DNA of 64,000 bases from Bryopsis sp. KO-2023 (taxonomy: Eukaryota; Chlorophyta; Ulvophyceae; Bryopsidales; Bryopsidaceae): positions 186,001 to 250,000 of the forward strand of contig BSYQ01000001.1 in the NCBI GenBank assembly GCA_030272585.1. The letters run 5' to 3'. The notes below the pieces were generated by a model. The model made no database searches and had not been told where the DNA came from. It saw only the letters and a list, made by a program, of their open reading frames with translations. Of the stretch, positions 13,239 to 28,552 are shown one piece after another; position 1 is the stretch's first letter, and each line of letters opens with the position of its first letter. The position numbers and the translations under genes were made by a program.

Positions 13239-16200
13239 ATGGCCGTTGAAGAACACTCTGGTGAAGAGGACAGTTTGATAGCGGGACACCCCCAGGAAGA
13301 CGTGGTGGAGATCGAAACGACTGGGCACGCCGCAGGTTCGAAATCGACCGAGCACGGGGCTACGCATGATCATGGAGCGTGGGGAGTGCCCGATGGATAC
13401 GAAGGAGGGCGGTTTCCCAACGCGGAGCACGAAGTTGGTGATGGAGAAGCAAGGGAGGAGTGTGAAGTGGAGGATGCTGGCCACGACCACCACAACAACG
13501 CGGCAGCGAGGGACGAATTCTTGGAGGAGTATGATGGAGAAGGCGCTATGAACGGCCAAGAAGGGACGCAGGGAGGATTTCACCCAGAAGACAGGTGTGC
13601 TAGACGGGAGGGGCGACCGTGGATGAGAATGCGATAAGAAAGAAAAGAATGATAAAAAAAACCGTGGATGACGTGACGGTTCGGATGCTGGGCGTGTTAT
13701 TTGGGGGCACCGCACGCCGGTTGCTAGTTGAGACGATAAGATCGAAAAAGAGAAAAGAAAAACAGCTGACGAAAGAGATCGTTACCGTGTTGGCGTGCGT
13801 TTTCTTGGCGTCTCCCCCCCTCCCCCCCCGCCCCCGCCCCACCACGGTCGAGCCCATAGAGCTGAAAAATGTTCCGATATAAAACCTCCTGGTTGCGTCG
13901 CCACCTTGGTCGGATGCTCTTGGAGGGAAAAGGCGGTTTTACTCTGCGACCCTGTTTGGAAATTGAGCGGAGGGACCGTTGCGCACCGTACCTGTGTTAT
14001 AGCCTGAGAGTTGCTGCCCCCATCCATACCTGAAATCACCAAATAGAAAAACTGGGGGAGGAAAAGGCACCATTTACATATGTGTCTCGAGTGTGAACAG
14101 AGAGGCTGAGACCCAAAATGGTGTGAGAAACTCTGATGAGGACAGGGGGTCTTTTGCTGGGGTCTGGGGGGGGGACCCCTGCACACTCACACACAATGGA
14201 TGTCCCTTCTATGGCGTGGTGAAACTCTCATGCATGTTCAAATGCCCATTTTGATGTCTTGGATTTTGGATTTCTCATGATTGCCACTCTCGTCAGTCAG
14301 TCCCTCGGCTCTTGGTTCAAGATATGCGGTTGACTGTTAAAGCTTCGAGCAGTCGAGTACTTATTCATTGGAGATATCGAAAAAGGCCCGTGCGTGCACC
14401 CTCACCCCCTCCCTTTTCTTAGGAAAACCCCACGGAAATCACCTGTGAGGGAGTGGTTTCCATCTGACGAGTAAGAAAATCGGGGGTGAGAGTGGTATGG
14501 ATGTGCACGAGGTCCCTGCTGAGGGCTATATCACCAGATCGGGTCAGACATACCGGGAGTTGTGCATTCTATCTGAGTTAATCTGTTCTGGACCTCCTGC
14601 AGGGGTGATGGCTACAGTGAAGGCTGTCCTGGGCGTATGGATTTGGACGAATCAGAATTGGATGGGGATGGGAGATCTGACGAGGAGGGTCGTCGGAAAC
14701 ACAAAACCATATCATGGAATGCATGGCGGAAACCTCCCGGTCCAGGAGAAGACTGCAATGGCCTCGGGGAGGGGTACGATAGACGGCGACGGGATGGGCT
14801 CAGTAGCGTCATTGTGAAAGGGGCGGAAGGGAGACCCCCGCCGCCGGGTCCAGTCCAGAACGGGGAAAAACGGCCGGAAGAACCTCATGTTGCTGAGGTT
14901 GCTGTCTCAGAGCAGGTGGATGCGAAGTGGCTTATGGACGAAGATGAGGGTGCTGCTGGGGAGCCTCCAAGGGAGGTAATAGAGGAGAAGAGGACAGATG
15001 TGAGGCCGGATATGAGGGCCGATATGAGGGCGGATATTCGGGTGGATCGAAAAAGGGAAAGGTCAAGGTCACGATCCCGGTCTCGATCCAGGTCAAGATC
15101 ACGCCTTCATTATCGAGGCAATCCAACACCCCCACCCCCGCCCCCACCCCGACCGAGACGAGTACCCATCCGAATGGGGGGGAGAACAGGTGGCTGGAAC
15201 CCAAGAAAACGGTTATTCTCTCGGGGGGGCAACAACCCATTTCTGCAAGGAAGGGGCCACCATCCAATGATTGTGAGACCCCCTCCTCGTCCTCCAATGC
15301 ACAGTCGAATGCATGGTCCGATGCCGAAGATGAGAATGCCCCAAACACTGCCCAGGCGGCTGTCAGGTGCTGGAATGGGACCTCGTGGAATGCCACCTGG
15401 AGTGGGAATGAGACATATTATTCGTCCCCCACCTAGAGTTGTTACTATGCCAGGCAGGCCTCTTCCACCTGGTTATGGCCCTGGACCAGGGAGGAGAGGA
15501 TCACGAAGGCCTCGGTCTCCTGCACGATCAGCAGAGAACTGGCAGCCAGATGGTCCTGTCTTTGTTTGGAATCGAAGCGATATGGATCATCGTATTCGTG
15601 GCCGTCCAGAGCCGATGGAACCGATTCGCCCACCACATCGTGACCTTCGATCAGGACCTGATCGAGACCGTGGTCCAGTTGATGGAAGAAGGGGGTGGAG
15701 AGGGGTTTCACCTGTGAATCAGAGGGTTCCCATGCATAGAAGTCCGAGAAAGAGAATTCCTCGGGACATGCGAGTATCGCCACCAAGTTCACCAACCCAT
15801 GCCAGGCAATTTCTCTCTCCACCACTACAAAGACGAGTTCGCATGCCGAGCCCTGGAAGGCCTAGGCGGGGTCCCCCACCACCCCCACGGGATATTCCAC
15901 CTCAATCGAGGTCCACGTACGGGCATGATAGAGTTGGCCGAGATCACAGGATGGAGCCTTCGTATCGCCGGGGGGAGGTCGTTCAGAGGCGGGGAGAGTC
16001 GACACAGCGAAGGTCAGAGCCTGTTCACAGGAGGTCTGATCATGTTTCCCGAAAAGACAGTCAACTGCATCGGAAAGAGGATGGCCTTTCATCAAGGAAA
16101 GATGCCCAACTCTCAAGAAGGGAGGACCACATCCATCACGGGCCTGGAAAAGAGGTTCATGGACGGGATTCTGGGCAGCAGCACGTGATGAGAGGGCACA

Positions 16201-16853
16201 CTCGCCAATACCACATGGATGTTGCTCCACATGGCTCTCGAGACAGAGAGAGGGACTCCCCAGAACCAAAGCGTCGAGCAATCTATCGTGAGGTCCCACC
16301 AAAGAGAATTGCAAGAAGCGGTGAATGGGAGAGGAGGGAATCGCCTCGGGAGAGGCAAGGCGCAGACCCACGAGCTTACATGTCCAGCCGCCGGCCAGAA
16401 ACCCATGATCGGGTGCCACGAGAATCCCGAGAAGTGAGGGAGCGCCACAAATCAGAATCCCCGCGAAACTATCAAAAACGGGTGATTGAGAGGTCCCCTG
16501 AGCGTCACAGGATGGGGCGAACAGCTGTCGAACCCAGTAGAGATGATGGCGAGCGACGGAGGGGAAATGGGACTGGGACCAGAACTGGAAATGTTGAGTT
16601 TTGTTACCCTGAGGATGAATGTGCTTGGTTCTATGTGGATCCCCAGGGATCAACCCAGGGTCCTTGCACAATTGAACAGTTCAGGGGCTGGCTGAAAACA
16701 TTGGCGAAAGACCCTCAGTTTAAGGAGGAGCACAAGCAATTTATGTCGGTGAACGTATGGAAGGAGGGAATGCATCGTAGGTTTCCCATGATGGCATTTT
16801 TAGATGAGAATCGACCTCCAGGGGGAGGGGGCCGGGACCGAAGTTGGATGTGA
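13239..16853 (+). CDS. SR/Arg-Pro-rich protein with C-terminal GYF-like domain
   Basis: Two exons (13239-13594 and 14603-16853) join at a phase-2 intron to give about 868 residues. The N-terminal 120 residues are acidic and His-rich. Near residue 260 there is an SR run (RSRSRSRSRSRSRSR), then a Pro-run, and then a long Arg/Pro/Met/Gly-rich region with many PPPRP-like segments and RS/RR-rich blocks. The last ~80 residues hold a GYF-like fold: CAWFYVDPQGSTQGPCTIEQ, then FRGWL and, further on, VNVWKEGMHRRF. GYF domains bind proline-rich peptides, and SR tracts place proteins in splicing or mRNP complexes, so a nuclear RNA-related adaptor is inferred. The canonical phenylalanine after QGP is Cys here and the second half of the motif is divergent. 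Long open frames on the opposite strand are compositional shadows. Confidence 0.85.
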
Positions 16854-17592: not shown

Positions 17593-20500
17593 ATGTCCAA
17601 GGACATGCGTACCACGGTCCATTTACAGTCCTTTTCGCTCCGTTCTCTACCCCTTGGGAGCAAATGCTTCCCAAAAGCCATTCTCACTCCCCTGCGAGAA
17701 ACTAACTACTTTTCCAACTCAATCTCCGCCACACGGAGTTCACAGCCGGCTGGGCTGCGTTCGGCGCCGCGGCTTTTGCTCCAGGAGGAGCAAGAGCCGC
17801 GGAATGTGGAGGAAGCTCCCCACATTTTCAATGCCGAAGTCCAGTCAGCCCCCCCTAACCTACCAAGGTGTTCTCCGTTACAACCGCCGACAGGACATAA
17901 TCCTGGCGCTTCAGAAGCAAGCTGTCAAAACGACAACTGCTGTGCTTGTAGCTTTTACTGGAGGGAGAAGACTTCAACTGAAGTGGAAAGAGGATTTCCT
18001 TCTGCAGGGGGTTGCCGTTTCCAGACAGGGTTGTGGCAGGGGACAAGGCGATGGGTGATTCGTCATACATTGCTCGGGACGCCCCTTCGAGCGTCGACGT
18101 CGTGTCGAACGCGCTGGACGAGTTTCGATTGGACGGGGAGTGCACAGACGGCAAGTGGTACGACCGGTCGTCTCATTCGACTCAAGATTCTTTCGCTAAG
18201 AGGAGCGTCAACACCATCACTGGCGAAAACTCGTCGACAACTGTGGGTTGGGCGGGGGGCGACCTGCTTTCGGTGGAATGCCCTCACAAGCAGTCCAGAG
18301 CCCCATCGACATCGTTGGCATTGCGATTGAGCGACGAGGCGGCTCCTCTGACGTCTTCGAACCAAGCTCCTCAGGTACATTCGACACGGAGTGGTCCGCG
18401 AGGCGTTCGCTCCAGTCGAGGCCGCTGGCGAGGGGATCCCCGCCGTGGGCGTGCATACAGGAAACTTTGGGAGCAAGTGACTAAGGTTGGTTCTGGAGAA
18501 GGGCTGGTAGACGGGAAACTGGGGGTGTTCGAAATGTCGGTGGAGGATATCGTGCGTCTTGTGCAGTCGCTGCCCCCCGATACCGCGGTTGGCCCCAAGG
18601 TTTCGCAAGCTCTGTGCTATTTGGACTCTCGTGCCACGGCTGCGTTGCTGAAGGAACTGGCGAAGGTCGGGAAAGTACAACGTGCAGTGGAACTGTTCGA
18701 CTGGCTGCGAGCGTTGGACACCCGGCACGAGTTGACGGCGCTGTGCGACGTGTATACGTACACCACGGCGATTTCCCTGTGCGGGCATCAAAAGGAACTG
18801 CGACGGGCGCTCGAGCTGCTGGCGGAGCAACGCAACAGAGGCGTCCAGTGCAACGTGCACACGTACAGCGCGTTGATGAACGTGTGTATAAAGTCGGGGG
18901 AATTAGATCTGGCGTTGGACGTGTTCAAACAGCTGCGAGCGGAGGGGTGCAAACCGAATGTCGTCACGTACAACACGCTCATCGACGTCTATGGAAAGCT
19001 GGGACAGTGGCGACAAGCCTCAGAGGTGTTGGTGACGGTAAAGGCCGAGGTGAGCCAGAAATCACACAGGCCGCGCCCGCCGCGGAAGATCACGTGACTG
19101 TTTTGAGCATAGTGTGATTGTTTTCTTTCTGTCCAACGTCCGACACCACATCCACAGTGATGCAAATGACAACGGGGAGAACGTCTTTCGGCAAAAAAAA
19201 ACGATGACCAGAAGTTCAGAAATGTTGAAACAGATTTCACAGTCCCTACCACCCCAGACTAACACCTAATATCCACTGTTTATCCAATTCGACCAACTGG
19301 TGGAATCTGCAAATCGTTTCTCTAAAATTCTGATGTCTGTCAGGGTGTGGTCCCCGAGATTCGAACCTACAACACAGCCCTGATAGCATGCAATATGTGT
19401 AATCAGCCATTGGAGGCCCTGAAGGTAAGATACATCTTCCCTACATTCAAATCCTTATGCAGAACTTTTGAGTGTTTGTGCCTGCTGGTGAGAATCGATG
19501 AAAATTGAAATCCGAATGTTGTAGTACTGCATCCACTTGATCATATTTTATTTTATACATGTTCGTTTTTTCCTCAGGTGTATGACCTCTTGATTGGAGC
19601 TGGGCTGCAACCATCAGCGACCACTTGCACAGCACTAATTTCAGCCTATGGGAAGGCTGGGTTGTATCAAAATGCATTCGACACTTACGACAAAATGGTG
19701 GCCAAAAAAATGGAACGCAGCATCATAACGTACACTGCTCTCATGACGGCTTGTGAAAAGCTAGGAGATTGGGAAAAAGGTCTCCAGTTCTTTCGGGACA
19801 TGCAAAGCCAGGGGTGCCAGCCCACCACTGTGTTGTACAATTCCTTGATCAGCGTGGTTTGTCAGGCCAGGGAGTGGAAAAAAGCAAATGCAGTTTTTGA
19901 TGGGATGAAACTCCATCACTGCAAACCAGACAACACCACGTTGATGCACTTGCTGAATGCATATGATCGGTGAGTGGAAGATTTTTTTTTTTACTGTTAG
20001 AGCAACCAAGCGAGAATTTTTTCGTTTTGGTTGAAAATGTGCTACACCATGGCTGAAAAACACTATTTATTTTTATATGGAGCCCGCCTACAGTGCAAGA
20101 AAGAGATCTAATTTCCGTGTGCTGCTTTTCTTGTTGTGGGGTTGTTCAGGTGTGGTGAATGGATTCAAGTGTCCAGTCTATTCGATGAAGTGCACCGGAT
20201 GGGTTTGAAGCTGGATTCCTCGTTTTACCATGCGGTCATTGATATGCTATGGTGCAGCGGGGTTACCCAGGCACAAGCAAAAGCGGTTCAGATTTTCACT
20301 GGGGCTACGAAAACCAGCAAAGCCCGGGTGGGGTTGCAGTCGAACCAAGAAATAGGGGTGTTGGAAGTTTCGGTCCAGCCGATTCGATTGGGTGTAGCGG
20401 TGATTGGCCTCCACAAATGGTTGATTGAAGTGAGGTGAGTGTATGCGTTTGAAGCTGTGCAGAGTTCTATTTTTGCCATTGCACCTTAAGTCACCTCAAG

Positions 20501-22611
20501 GGATATCCGCTAGTCAAACAGCAAGGACGACTACTTTTTTTCCTTTGGTTTTGGGCCGAAACTTTGGAACGATAACAAGAATTCCCAAGCATCGTTTCGC
20601 AGTTTTCGAAAACCTCCATTTTTCTTGCATATTCTTTTTATGTACCACAGAGAACAATCGAAGTACAATTTTATTAAAGGCATAGCAAAAATTTATTTTC
20701 TATCGGTTAAGACAGTCAAAATCCCATCAGTAAAGGATTAATAGTTTCTCGCTGACTTCTCCTTGCTTGTGTGATTTTTTTTCAGTGAGATGCTGGGCAA
20801 TGATTCCACATATTTGTTGAATTGTGATGTGTCTATTGTGATTGGCCGAGGCCGCAATGGAAGAGAGTCTGCATGCAAAGCAATGAAAGACTCTCTCCTT
20901 GGCATGTTTCAAGCATTGGGTGCTCCATTCAGGTACTAAAAGAAACTAAAATGAAAAACTTGATAAATCAATCTTGTGTTTCATTTCCACATACCGGTTT
21001 TGCTTTCAACAGTAAGATCAATATTGCATTAGGTTGCACCAACCCTAACCCCTGACCATCACAGTCGCATCGTACTGCACCAATCTTCAATGGCCACGGC
21101 TCCCTCGAATGTCTGACTGTATCAAAGACCTACGTATTTGATAAGATCAGTTCCTTTTCGGTGCGTTTTTCTTCCAGGTCTTGCAGTGATGATGGTCGCG
21201 TTGTGCCGACACTGGAGTGCTCCGGTTATTCTTTTCGAATGTGGTTGCAAAATCCGGACAGCTTTGCCCTGGTGAAAGCGTTGGTGTGCAGCGATGAGCA
21301 GGAGGGGTTGGATAGGGGTGACATTCCCGAACGGTTGCTCCCGGTTGATGAAAAATTCAGGGAGGCGTACGGAGTGATTGTGAAATTTGAGGAGACTCAC
21401 CGATTAAACTACGAGGTGAGGTTGCTGAATGATTTATATGTTGCTTGTCGTTGCCTTCCAGCCGAGTGTCCAGTGGGAAGAAGGTTTTGTGAGAGGAGGT
21501 GGTGTCCAAAAAGATTAATAGAGGAATTTTGAATCATCTCAATTGTGGTGGCTGGGTGCAGGCCATGGGAGAAGAGTATGTACAAGTGAGATCGCAGCTT
21601 GTGGCTGTTGCTGGAGGCCTTGGCCACCGACTTGGGCTGAAAGAGGAAACTATACATGATGCCGTTTTGTTGATGGACAGAGTGATGTCGACTGGAGCAA
21701 GGGTTAGTGCTGTAGAAAGGGGAAAAATTATGGATGTTCAATATCTTGAATAGCAGTTTTTCGGCACTGTGGCTGAAACAGCAAAACAGAAATATCGCCT
21801 TGATCAGACCACTTTGCATATCTCTGAGGACATTTTGCTGATATCTTTTAGATTGCTTGAAATTTTTGCATCAGCTTCTTTTTTTTTTGTTCCCAGAAAC
21901 CAGACGCTTTTTTTTTTGGATACCCATATGGATTAGTAGATATGACTGTCCACTGTGTGTTGCTCCAGTTTCAGGAGGGTATTTCAACAGTGGTGGTTGC
22001 GGCCTTGATTCGAATAGCTGCGGAAGCCAGCGAACATCGGCAATCTATCCCAACCCCGCAACAAATGGATCTGCTGGCCCAATTCCCCATGGGATCAGTC
22101 CAAGAGCTGGAAAACCAAATCGAAGCAGCACTGGGCTATGACACAGCGGCAATATCGGCCCTTCGAGTGACGAAACTGTACATGGAATGGTTGGGATACG
22201 AAGCAGTCCCGGAGTGGAGCGCTCCGGCAGCGATTCACATCCAGTCCATGTTGAGTGATGCGTTATCCTCTCCAGCATTTTTGAATTTCAGGCCTTCAGT
22301 GCTGGCGGCAGCTATTCTGTATCACGATCGATCGACAAGAGGCTGGGTTCCCTATTGGCCAACCAGTCTCGCCCAAATAACAGGTACGTCATCTGAGTAG
22401 GGCTTTTACACACACTGTATCATTCTCGTTCCACAAGAAAATGAAAGAGGACAGGATTCACTCTGTTTTGTTAATTGTGTTTTTTTTTTGTTGTTGTGTA
22501 GGGTATGGTGATGTGACATCTCCTGAGATGAGAGGAGCCATTCATGCCATCATTGACCTGGAGCAATCAAACCATTGTCCCAGAAATCACATTTTAGCTT
22601 TGACCTTATAA
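17593..22611 (+). CDS. PPR-SMR-cyclin fusion protein, probably plastid-targeted
   Basis: Ten exons join in one frame to about 1,039 residues: 17593-17867, 18008-19049, 19344-19424, 19578-19969, 20150-20434, 20786-20932, 21178-21415, 21562-21702, 21975-22383 and 22502-22611. The first ~60 residues are Ser/Thr/Arg-rich with few acids, like a chloroplast transit peptide. About eight P-type PPR repeats occupy residues ~300-640, for example NVHTYSALMNVCIKSGELD and NVVTYNTLIDVYGKLGQW. An SMR domain follows at ~665-735, with LEVSVQPIRLG and VSIVIGRGRNGRES; its usual LDLH is replaced by LEVS. The last ~300 residues resemble a two-part cyclin fold, ending AQITGYGDVTSPEMRGAIH. PPR-SMR-cyclins have been described in green algae. 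A role in organelle RNA or nucleoid metabolism is inferred; the cyclin part's partner is unknown. Confidence 0.88.
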
Positions 22612-26170: not shown

Positions 26171-28552
26171 TCAAGTGCAGCATGGCAACCGGCATGGCTT
26201 TCCTTTACAGTTTGGAGCATGGACACTCATCAGCAATCCCAGCCAGCGGCAAGAAGAACAATTCCCACCGCGGTTCCTGCACCTCCTCACATGGTCAAAC
26301 AATTTCTTCAACTGCTCGCACATCGTCGTGCAAGGATATTGACGGCACTCGTACGCATGAGTCAACGGGTCGACCTCCTCCGGTAACACATCAGGGAACA
26401 GCGTGCTGTCCAGGCCCATTTGCAGAGACAACCCCGACGAGGATGAGTAGTACTCCTTCCTGGTTGGATAAGGTGAGGGTTGGCTCGTGCGAGGGGAAAC
26501 GAGATTCGGCATCAGCCAATCAGATCCCCTTTGGATGCCTGCATGACTGACTGGCTGCATCATATCCAGGCCGGGAACGAAGGCACTGGTCAATGAAGGC
26601 AACGATCCCACAGATTCGCGTACTTCCAGGTGTGTTAACCCCATGTGAGTTGCAGGATGCATGGATCTAGACACTGGTTCAATCGTTTGAGTCATCAGGC
26701 TGGGCGGAACAACCCCCTGGTAGACCTGGGGCTCCGGGTATGGCATGTCCATCATCGGTCCATTGGTGGGCAGAAGCCCCTCGGCGCAAGTTGCAAAATC
26801 ACCAAAAGATGATGGGGCCAAAATCTCAGGATCGGGGAAAATCTCCTGTGGAACGGTTGAGGCAGCAATGTGCTCCTCCAGTTCCGGCACCTCGTCCCAT
26901 GCATTCACACATGGGAACGATTTATCTGCCAAAAAATCATCATGAAGCCATGACAAGTCACCCGAGCTGAAATCAGGCTCTGGAAATACTTCGTCATTCT
27001 GTCAGCACCAAAACACAGAAAAGAAATCACCAACAATTGATTAGTGATTATAGCCTGTTTGCATGGTTGGGCTCTAGGTATATTTCCATCTCCATTTCCA
27101 CATATTTCTAGTTGTTTTTTTCAACGTTGCTTGAGAAGATGCTTTTGGTTAATAAGTGTTGGTTGCTGAATTTTTTTTAATGTAGTTGAAAACAATACCA
27201 GGATTCCAGCCAAGGGTCCTGCTTCGAAGCTCGAATCGAGGCACTCCCATGGCTGGCAATTTGGAACTGCAAAAAAAAGGAAAAAACATAAGGGTGAGCC
27301 CTTCATGTGTTCTGTGCACCACAGTTTGCTGAGAGCTGAAATTGGAAAAGGGTGATCAGTCATTTTCTGACATAGCTTATGGAAATTTTCTGCCCCTTCA
27401 CAAGCACTAGAAAAAATAACGAACCACACATAGTTGAATCAGGGGTAGGGTCAATACCTTCCGGCTCTTGCGTCACGTTTTCAGCATTCTGCATCACCAA
27501 GACAATGATGTTATAAATTGGATGACTAATATCTTTACTGGCCACAGCAAACACTGTTGACAGACATGGATGGAGAATCCTTGTCAAAGACAATACATGA
27601 ATTCCATCTATGGGTAGGTTGATTTCAAAAATTTCAGATTCCAATGACAAAATGGGGCCAGGGGAGGCGGTTGGTGGAATTGGGCGCTAATAATAGCTAC
27701 GTGGTGTTGACGCACTTGATTGGTCGGTTCCTCGCGTTTCATCAAACTGAAGTTTTCCAACCGCTGTTCTCCCACACCAACGCCGTACGTGTCCCCCTCC
27801 GCCTTGATTTTCGGCACGTGTTGACCGCCCGAGAAACCAAAGTCGAGACTTCTGTTCAAACTATCCTTGCGCTGGTCCAAAAGCAAGTCACAGCCGACTC
27901 CAGAACACCGCGCATCGGGGACGTTCCAAACCATCTGGTTTTCTCCAACCAATGTTGGCGAAAGCTTACACCTGCTCGAACCTGACGGGTTCACGGCCGC
28001 CGAGTCACTCCTTCGCTTGCCGGGACGCGAGTGGCTTTTGCGCGACGGGACAGCCGTCGTACTCATATTTCGTTGAATATTCGACTGCCCGTTCATGTTC
28101 AAGGAGCTCTGTTGCTGTTCAGTTCTCGTGGTCGCCACTGTGCGTCCAGCCTCTGGGCTGCTTTCATCCGACACGGCAATTTCCGTGCGTCCCGAAAGAT
28201 TCGACGTGTCAGTCGGAGCATTGCTTTCAGGTGAACTCGTCGGAGACAGACGCTTCGCACAAACCTTGAGCCTATCCAAAAGCGTCGACCGGTCGACGTA
28301 TTCCTCCTGCGACAGGGGGTCAGGGTTGCGATATAAGAAAACACGGAAAGTTGACAGAATAAATGCAGGGGTTGAAAACAGTGAGGCAGAGATGGCAAGT
28401 GCTGTTTCCGACGACAATGCGCGACTCACCTCGGACTTGGCGTTCTCGTAGAGCACCAGCTCGAGCTTCTTCACGAAATTAGGAAACGCCTTTTCCGAGA
28501 CCAACCGACTGTTTCGCTCGGCGAAGAAGTTTCGACTGGCCACACAACGCAT
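26171..28552 (-). CDS. KIX-like plus TAZ zinc-finger protein (transcriptional coactivator-like)
   Basis: Five exons (28552-28430, 28306-27716, 27488-27458, 27266-27199, 26998-26171) join in frame to about 546 residues. The N-terminus resembles helices 2 and 3 of a KIX domain: FVKKLELVLYENAKSEEEY followed by LLDRLKVCAKRL, comparable to the MYESANSRxEY region of CBP/p300. A polar, Ser-rich linker follows, then an acidic middle section (EVPELEEH and neighbours). The C-terminal ~60 residues form a TAZ finger with three H-x3-C modules (HAYEC, HVRRC, HAPNC) and further paired cysteines, ending CRLPCC. KIX and TAZ domains recruit activation domains of transcription factors; here no HAT, bromodomain or ZZ domain accompanies them. 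KIX helix 1 may lie in an unseen upstream exon. The stop right after the last zinc-ligand region is early for a TAZ fold. Confidence 0.8.

Follow-up and report, generated by a model that had tools for sequence, protein, structure and literature searches.

Within the 64,000-nucleotide window of the Bryopsis sp. KO-2023 assembly analysed here (contig BSYQ01000001.1, positions 186,001 to 250,000), the forward strand carries a gene at 17593-22611 whose predicted protein joins an array of pentatricopeptide repeats (PPRs) to an SMR-like region and a cyclin fold. Taken as a whole this protein is most likely an RNA-bound adaptor, a reading to which we give about an even chance, with the PPRs binding RNA and the SMR and cyclin parts binding partners rather than cutting RNA or activating a cyclin-dependent kinase (CDK). 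Judged by its family, the most likely ligand of the PPR array is a short single-stranded piece of RNA. In the SMR-like region both catalytic signatures have changed, and its role is probably to contact RNA or lend stability rather than to cut. The C-terminal cyclin fold is real, and in the window copy is probably a partner-binding module.

Gene model and paralogs

The rebuilt ten-exon model gives one frame of 1039 residues, open throughout and closed by a TAA stop ending at 22611, with all nine introns of the GT-AG type, in line with the single continuous gene proposed in the initial annotation. Searching the 91.1-Mb assembly with the SMR-cyclin part returned 13 matches in all, which beyond the window gene fall in two places, here called C3 and C7. 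The paralogs at these places, spliced by hand, show 52% (C3) and 40% (C7) identity to the window protein, and the order PPR, SMR, cyclin is the same in all three genes. No further relatives were found in viral or prokaryote contigs, as expected for a eukaryotic gene. Of the nine window introns, two agree in column and phase across all three genes, and one of this pair interrupts the SMR region. C3 shares a further four, one of which is displaced by two alignment columns at a gap, and C7 shares a further one. Unshared are two introns of the window gene, four of C3, and, among the mapped introns of C7, another four. Given this common order and these shared introns, the fusion is most likely older than the duplications that produced the paralogs. 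Beyond its cyclin part, C7 continues into a long tail rich in Ser, Pro, Ala, and Gln (L031 1008-1741, - strand), with no such tail in the window copy or C3.

As far as sequence can say, the window locus is one continuous nuclear gene for a PPR-SMR-cyclin protein and not a mis-join, since exon 5 spans the PPR/SMR boundary and exon 7 the SMR/cyclin boundary, and since three genes share an identical domain order and some of their introns. That two adjacent genes were fused by prediction is scarcely credible given the bridging exons and the paralogs, and such an artefact was dismissed.

PPR array, SMR-like region and cyclin fold

Pfam recognises PPR families in the whole window protein with E-values down to 1e-55 (PPR_2), and nine 35-residue PPR-like units, the ninth of them poor, follow one another in a single register over residues 340-654. 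Such tandem 35-residue repeats are those of a P-class PPR protein, and their number agrees with the "about eight" counted earlier. The residue pairs at positions 5 and 35 include T/N, S/N, N/S, and N/D. Under the PPR code, which assigns such pairs to bases and whose readings here carry low weight, the window copy reads A-A-?-C-(a)-(a)-U-?, C3 reads A-A-?-?-A-(C/U)-U-?, and C7 reads A-A-?-(C/U)-C-A-U-G, with unit nine unread in each. Because these predicted readings differ, the RNA targets of the three paralogs may differ. A separate observation concerns the SACEK PPR motif. Beyond the dinoflagellates, a 2026 review places it solely in heterokonts and in some of the cryptophytes and haptophytes (PMC12787238); here, in a green alga, it occurs exactly in C7 (residues 411-415) and nearly so in the window copy (TACEK, residues 523-527, 19746-19760) and in C3 (ATCEK, residues 378-382).

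In the SMR-like region, LEVS (residues 668-671) stands in the LDXH position and IGRGRNG (residues 711-717) supplies IGRG in the TGXG position. Both signatures are altered in all three paralogs, with LDXH replaced by LEVS in the window copy, LEAS in C3, and VEVN in C7, and TGXG replaced by IGRG, VGRV, and TDKG respectively. The initial annotation described a degenerate SMR domain in which LDLH had become LEVS and the IGRGRNGRES loop was kept. The loss of LDXH stands, and is common to all three paralogs rather than private to the window copy; as for the loop, GRGRNG is kept whole in the window copy, which sets it apart from C3 and C7, however the Thr of TGXG has become Ile.

The identification of this region leans on pTAC2/PAP2, a plastid PPR-SMR protein and member of the plastid transcription complex, which is not known to have a cyclin part. 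With the last half PPR included, all three matches to the region in the PDB at E up to 1 were to pTAC2/PAP2 (E 0.015-0.034), in an alignment that places LEVS opposite VDVH and extends up to the GRGRN loop, and when a profile of two PPRs plus the SMR region is used, pTAC2 aligns over query 6-168, continuing past the PPRs into the SMR part. The SMR motifs of pTAC2 are likewise degenerate, being given as VDVH and SVRG in PMC6662315.

Several results weigh against the SMR label. These E-values are marginal, and no solved protein besides pTAC2/PAP2 is matched through this region; the region alone retrieved no SMR protein from the PDB, its two matches (E 1.4 and 1.5) being unrelated. Pfam Smr matched none of the three paralog SMR regions at E up to 10, nor the whole window protein, and NCBIfam gave no match to the SMR and cyclin parts. 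At the same Pfam threshold the genome holds four Smr loci, which by eye comprise one MutS2-like locus, two with CUE/DUF1771-like surroundings, and one other, and the three PPR-cyclins are not among them. Homology to a degenerate SMR of the pTAC2 kind is nonetheless likely, whilst being the weakest label of the protein.

The cyclin fold proposed earlier for the C-terminal part was borne out when profiles were run against it. In the whole window protein Cyclin_C scores 25.9 bits over residues 959-1026, above the Pfam cut-off of 22 bits, indicating a C-terminal cyclin box; in the last 261 residues alone Cyclin_C reaches 28.8 bits and Cyclin_N 18.7 bits. Against solved structures, these 261 residues find cyclin A2 as their nearest relative (E 0.0017), with all 18 matches at E up to 1 being cyclin A, and the profile built from all three paralogs aligns to cyclin A2 over its two boxes (best E 9.8e-9), with cyclin E1 a weaker match. 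C7 exceeds both cut-offs (Cyclin_C 40.3, Cyclin_N 39 bits).

The window protein differs from cyclin A2 in its fusion to PPR-SMR and at the position of K266, which together with E295 forms the Lys-Glu pair of cyclin A that contacts the CDK. The paralogs were aligned with cyclin A2 and with L043 (Cyclin_N E 1.7e-30) and L044 (Cyclin_N E 5.1e-15), two further cyclins of this genome. At the K266 position the window copy has Glu 884, C3 has Arg, and C7, L043, and L044 have Lys; at the E295 position every paralog has Glu, numbered 913 in the window copy, as does L043, but L044 has Met. A third comparison cyclin, L045, has Lys at the K266 and Arg at the E295 position, and was left out of the final alignment for its poor fit. 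The window copy thus has Glu 884/Glu 913 in place of the Lys-Glu pair. As the CDK-contacting Lys is Glu, its cyclin part is probably not a standard CDK activator, which weakens for this copy the tie to CDK or cell-cycle control raised in the initial annotation. Of the three, C7 would be the likeliest to bind a CDK in conventional fashion, should any do so, and the window copy the least likely.

This reading of the cyclin part also has points to its disadvantage. Cyclin_N remains below its cut-off of 23 bits in the whole window protein (15.4 bits, residues 828-923), and the exchange of Lys for Glu comes from one alignment in a poorly conserved stretch, where the Met of L044 at the E295 position indicates that either the alignment or the residue pair is no sure guide. 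AlphaFold was given two single-exon pieces, window exon 9 in an alignment of three paralog rows and C7 exon 6 in one of two rows, and the resulting models reached a mean predicted local distance difference test (pLDDT) score of 47.3 and 63.1 respectively, and none of the 31 PDB matches found by Foldseek with the better, C7 model was a cyclin, all having E above 3; both models being poor, they were not used as evidence.

Start codon, compartment and alternative readings

The first 60 residues of exon 1 contain 2 acidic residues, 16 Ser/Thr, and 9 Lys/Arg, a composition that fits the transit-peptide-like N-terminus noted initially, and the splice sites of this exon are usable, with a donor of 6.8 bits, outscoring 5 of the 26 known donors, and an acceptor of 10.5 bits, outscoring 20 of 26. 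The start context (CTG ATG T) is however poorer than that of the ATG at 18051 (GCG ATG G), and the codon score per codon is -0.13 (-0.24 and -0.23 in the other frames), compared with +0.07 (-0.31 and -0.20) for 18051-18350. The score is noisy, with some 120-base windows inside the main coding frame as low as -0.34, and at 18349 and 18409 the main frame is not the best or lies near the others, so the low score of exon 1 is no proof. Neither paralog model has a transit-like start, with 6 (C3) and 8 (C7) acidic residues among the first 60; no further in-frame ATG lies between the model start and the upstream stop in either, though unseen upstream exons are possible. Window residues 107-240 resemble C3 residues 1-110 significantly (0.15% of shuffles). 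A resemblance seen by eye between the N-terminus from ATG 18051 and that of C7 (DEFRLDGE and NRLFLMDGE) was not used, its score being reached by 17% of 2000 shuffles. Start context and paralogs thus favour ATG 18051, as weakly does codon usage, leaving exon 1 and the start codon at 17593 uncertain and the transit peptide doubtful.

A Chlamydomonas PPR-cyclin, Cre12.g511400, offers a comparison. In PMC8448359 it is named "Cyclin-related protein with PPR domain", is listed among 253 higher-confidence photosynthesis candidates from acetate-requiring mutants, is marked as also found in maize and Arabidopsis libraries, and is scored "O" for localisation, that is, other than chloroplast by PredAlgo or ChloroP. 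A link to photosynthesis is thus possible and need not imply import into the chloroplast.

These points bear on whether the protein is a chloroplast RNA factor, imported by an exon 1 transit peptide and stabilising or processing a plastid transcript as other PPR-SMR proteins do, with the cyclin part as a scaffold. Such a role would suit the composition and splice sites of exon 1, the slight advantage of its frame over the other two, the best natural PPR match in the PDB (the plastid protein pTAC2), and the acetate-requiring mutant candidate. We nevertheless regard it as unlikely, though worth serious weight, given the better start context and codon score at 18051 (noisy as the score is), paralog models that do not begin transit-like (unless exons lie upstream), and the "O" of Cre12.g511400. 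Were the protein instead an RNA-tethered CDK adaptor, its cyclin part would bind and activate a CDK which the PPR part would lead to particular transcripts; the cyclin A2-like C-terminal part is compatible with this, as is C7, where the K266 and E295 positions retain Lys and Glu and both cyclin cut-offs are exceeded. The Glu of the window copy and the Arg of C3 at the K266 position, and a Cyclin_N score under the cut-off in both (17.1 bits in C3), make this quite improbable.

For RNA cutting, the TGXG position is more telling than LDXH. SOT1 and GUN1 resemble the window protein in having a PPR array followed by an SMR domain, and are not known to have a cyclin part. In SOT1, according to a review (PMC6662315), LDXH serves DNA cleavage and TGXG RNA cleavage, with SOT1 itself having LDVR; the same source gives the TGXG motifs of SOT1 and GUN1 as intact (TGTG and TGWG), in contrast to the IGRG of the window protein. 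The loss of LDLH therefore says little about RNA cleavage, and the inference of nucleic-acid binding without the usual nuclease motif, which leaned on LDLH alone, is not supported in that form; the altered TGXG of all three paralogs speaks more strongly against an RNA nuclease than the lost LDXH does. A sequence-specific RNA endonuclease of the SOT1 kind, its RNA chosen by the PPRs and cut by the SMR part, would be consistent with the intact GRGRNG of the window copy and with SOT1's use of TGXG despite its LDVR, however Ile in place of Thr in the window copy, and VGRV and TDKG in the paralogs, render it very improbable. More remote still is a view of the three paralogs as extra-organellar RNA-binding cyclins, in which C7 would take active CDK to chosen nuclear or cytosolic messages and the window copy, made a pseudo-cyclin by its exchange of Lys for Glu and binding the same kind of RNA, would block or buffer that control; if true, green algae would link transcript choice to kinase control through PPRs outside organelles. 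An RNA-bound adaptor remains our preferred reading.

Related proteins and neighbouring features

SMR11 and SMR4 are SIAMESE-RELATED CDK inhibitors. PPR3, PPR4, and PPR6 were reportedly described as green-algal PPR-SMR-cyclins by Tourasse et al. in RNA Biology in 2013. A table of PMC9368121 lists Chlamydomonas PPR4 (Cre12.g511400) and PPR6 (Cre10.g437150) each as "PPR-Cyclin protein", in keeping with the initial remark that such fusions are reported for green algae; that table pairs the two with Arabidopsis SMR11 and SMR4, which looks like a clash of SMR names. The likeness to the Chlamydomonas proteins is one of name and description, and three such genes occur here too. The window gene is a further member of this already named green-algal family, with PPR, SMR, and cyclin following one another in one protein, where the SMR step depends on the marginal match to pTAC2. 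The assembly itself has a green-type light-harvesting complex (LHC) protein (one locus, by eye) and, on a 91,672-base contig, an rbcL whose nearest matches among solved structures are 8q04 and then the Chlamydomonas enzyme, ahead of land-plant ones, with no DYW domain above the cut-off. The chlorophyll a/b-binding family gives 103 exon-level matches over many contigs, which suggests that this alga has numerous LHC genes.

Just upstream of the gene, at 14577-16853 (+), lies a 758-residue Arg/Pro-rich open frame with RS-type repeats and a sub-threshold GYF match, and at 26171-27001 (-) an open frame with a TAZ zinc finger (Pfam E 6e-9).

Table 1. Features of the PPR-SMR-cyclin gene in the window, and its paralogs elsewhere in the assembly
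Feature	Position	Strand	Basis or remark
Exon 1, putative and doubtful; transit-peptide-like, about 91 residues	17593-17867	+	Open frame, usable splice sites; weak codon signal, poor ATG context
Exon 2; low-complexity lead with RG-containing stretch, then first PPRs	18008-19049	+	35-residue register begins at residue 340 (18750)
Alternative start codon, GCG ATG G context	18051-18053	+	Only in-frame ATG after upstream stop; G at -3 and +4
About nine P-type PPRs, exons 2-5, introns included	18750-20321	+	Pfam PPR_2 E 1e-55; 35-residue register
Exon 3	19344-19424	+	
Exon 4	19578-19969	+	
Exon 5; end of PPR array, start of SMR-like region with LEVS (20361-20372)	20150-20434	+	Bridges PPR and SMR
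Exon 6; SMR-like core with IGRGRNG (20841-20861)	20786-20932	+	pTAC2 match
Exon 7; SMR tail, linker to cyclin part	21178-21415	+	Bridges SMR and cyclin
Exon 8; beginning of N-terminal cyclin box	21562-21702	+	Cyclin_N from residue 828; cyclin A2 alignments
Exon 9; remaining cyclin N box (Glu 884 = K266-equivalent, Glu 913 = E295-equivalent), most of C box	21975-22383	+	Pfam; cyclin alignment
Exon 10; end of C-terminal cyclin box, TAA stop	22502-22611	+	
C3 paralog	near 2.67 Mb	-	894 residues, PPR-SMR-cyclin
C7 paralog (L031)	near 5.57 Mb	-	At least 1078 residues, 3' end unfinished, PPR-SMR-cyclin

Whilst the PPR-cyclins have been named, they are an orphan architecture, with no functional study found in open-licence full texts beyond one line in a mutant screen. 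To this family the present analysis adds the set of three genes, the shared decay of the SMR motifs, the Glu/Arg/Lys series at the K266 position of the cyclin box, and uncertainty over the transit peptide. With a CDK-contact residue graded across three paralogs and differing predicted PPR codes, CDK binding, RNA target, and entry into the chloroplast become open to simple tests copy by copy.

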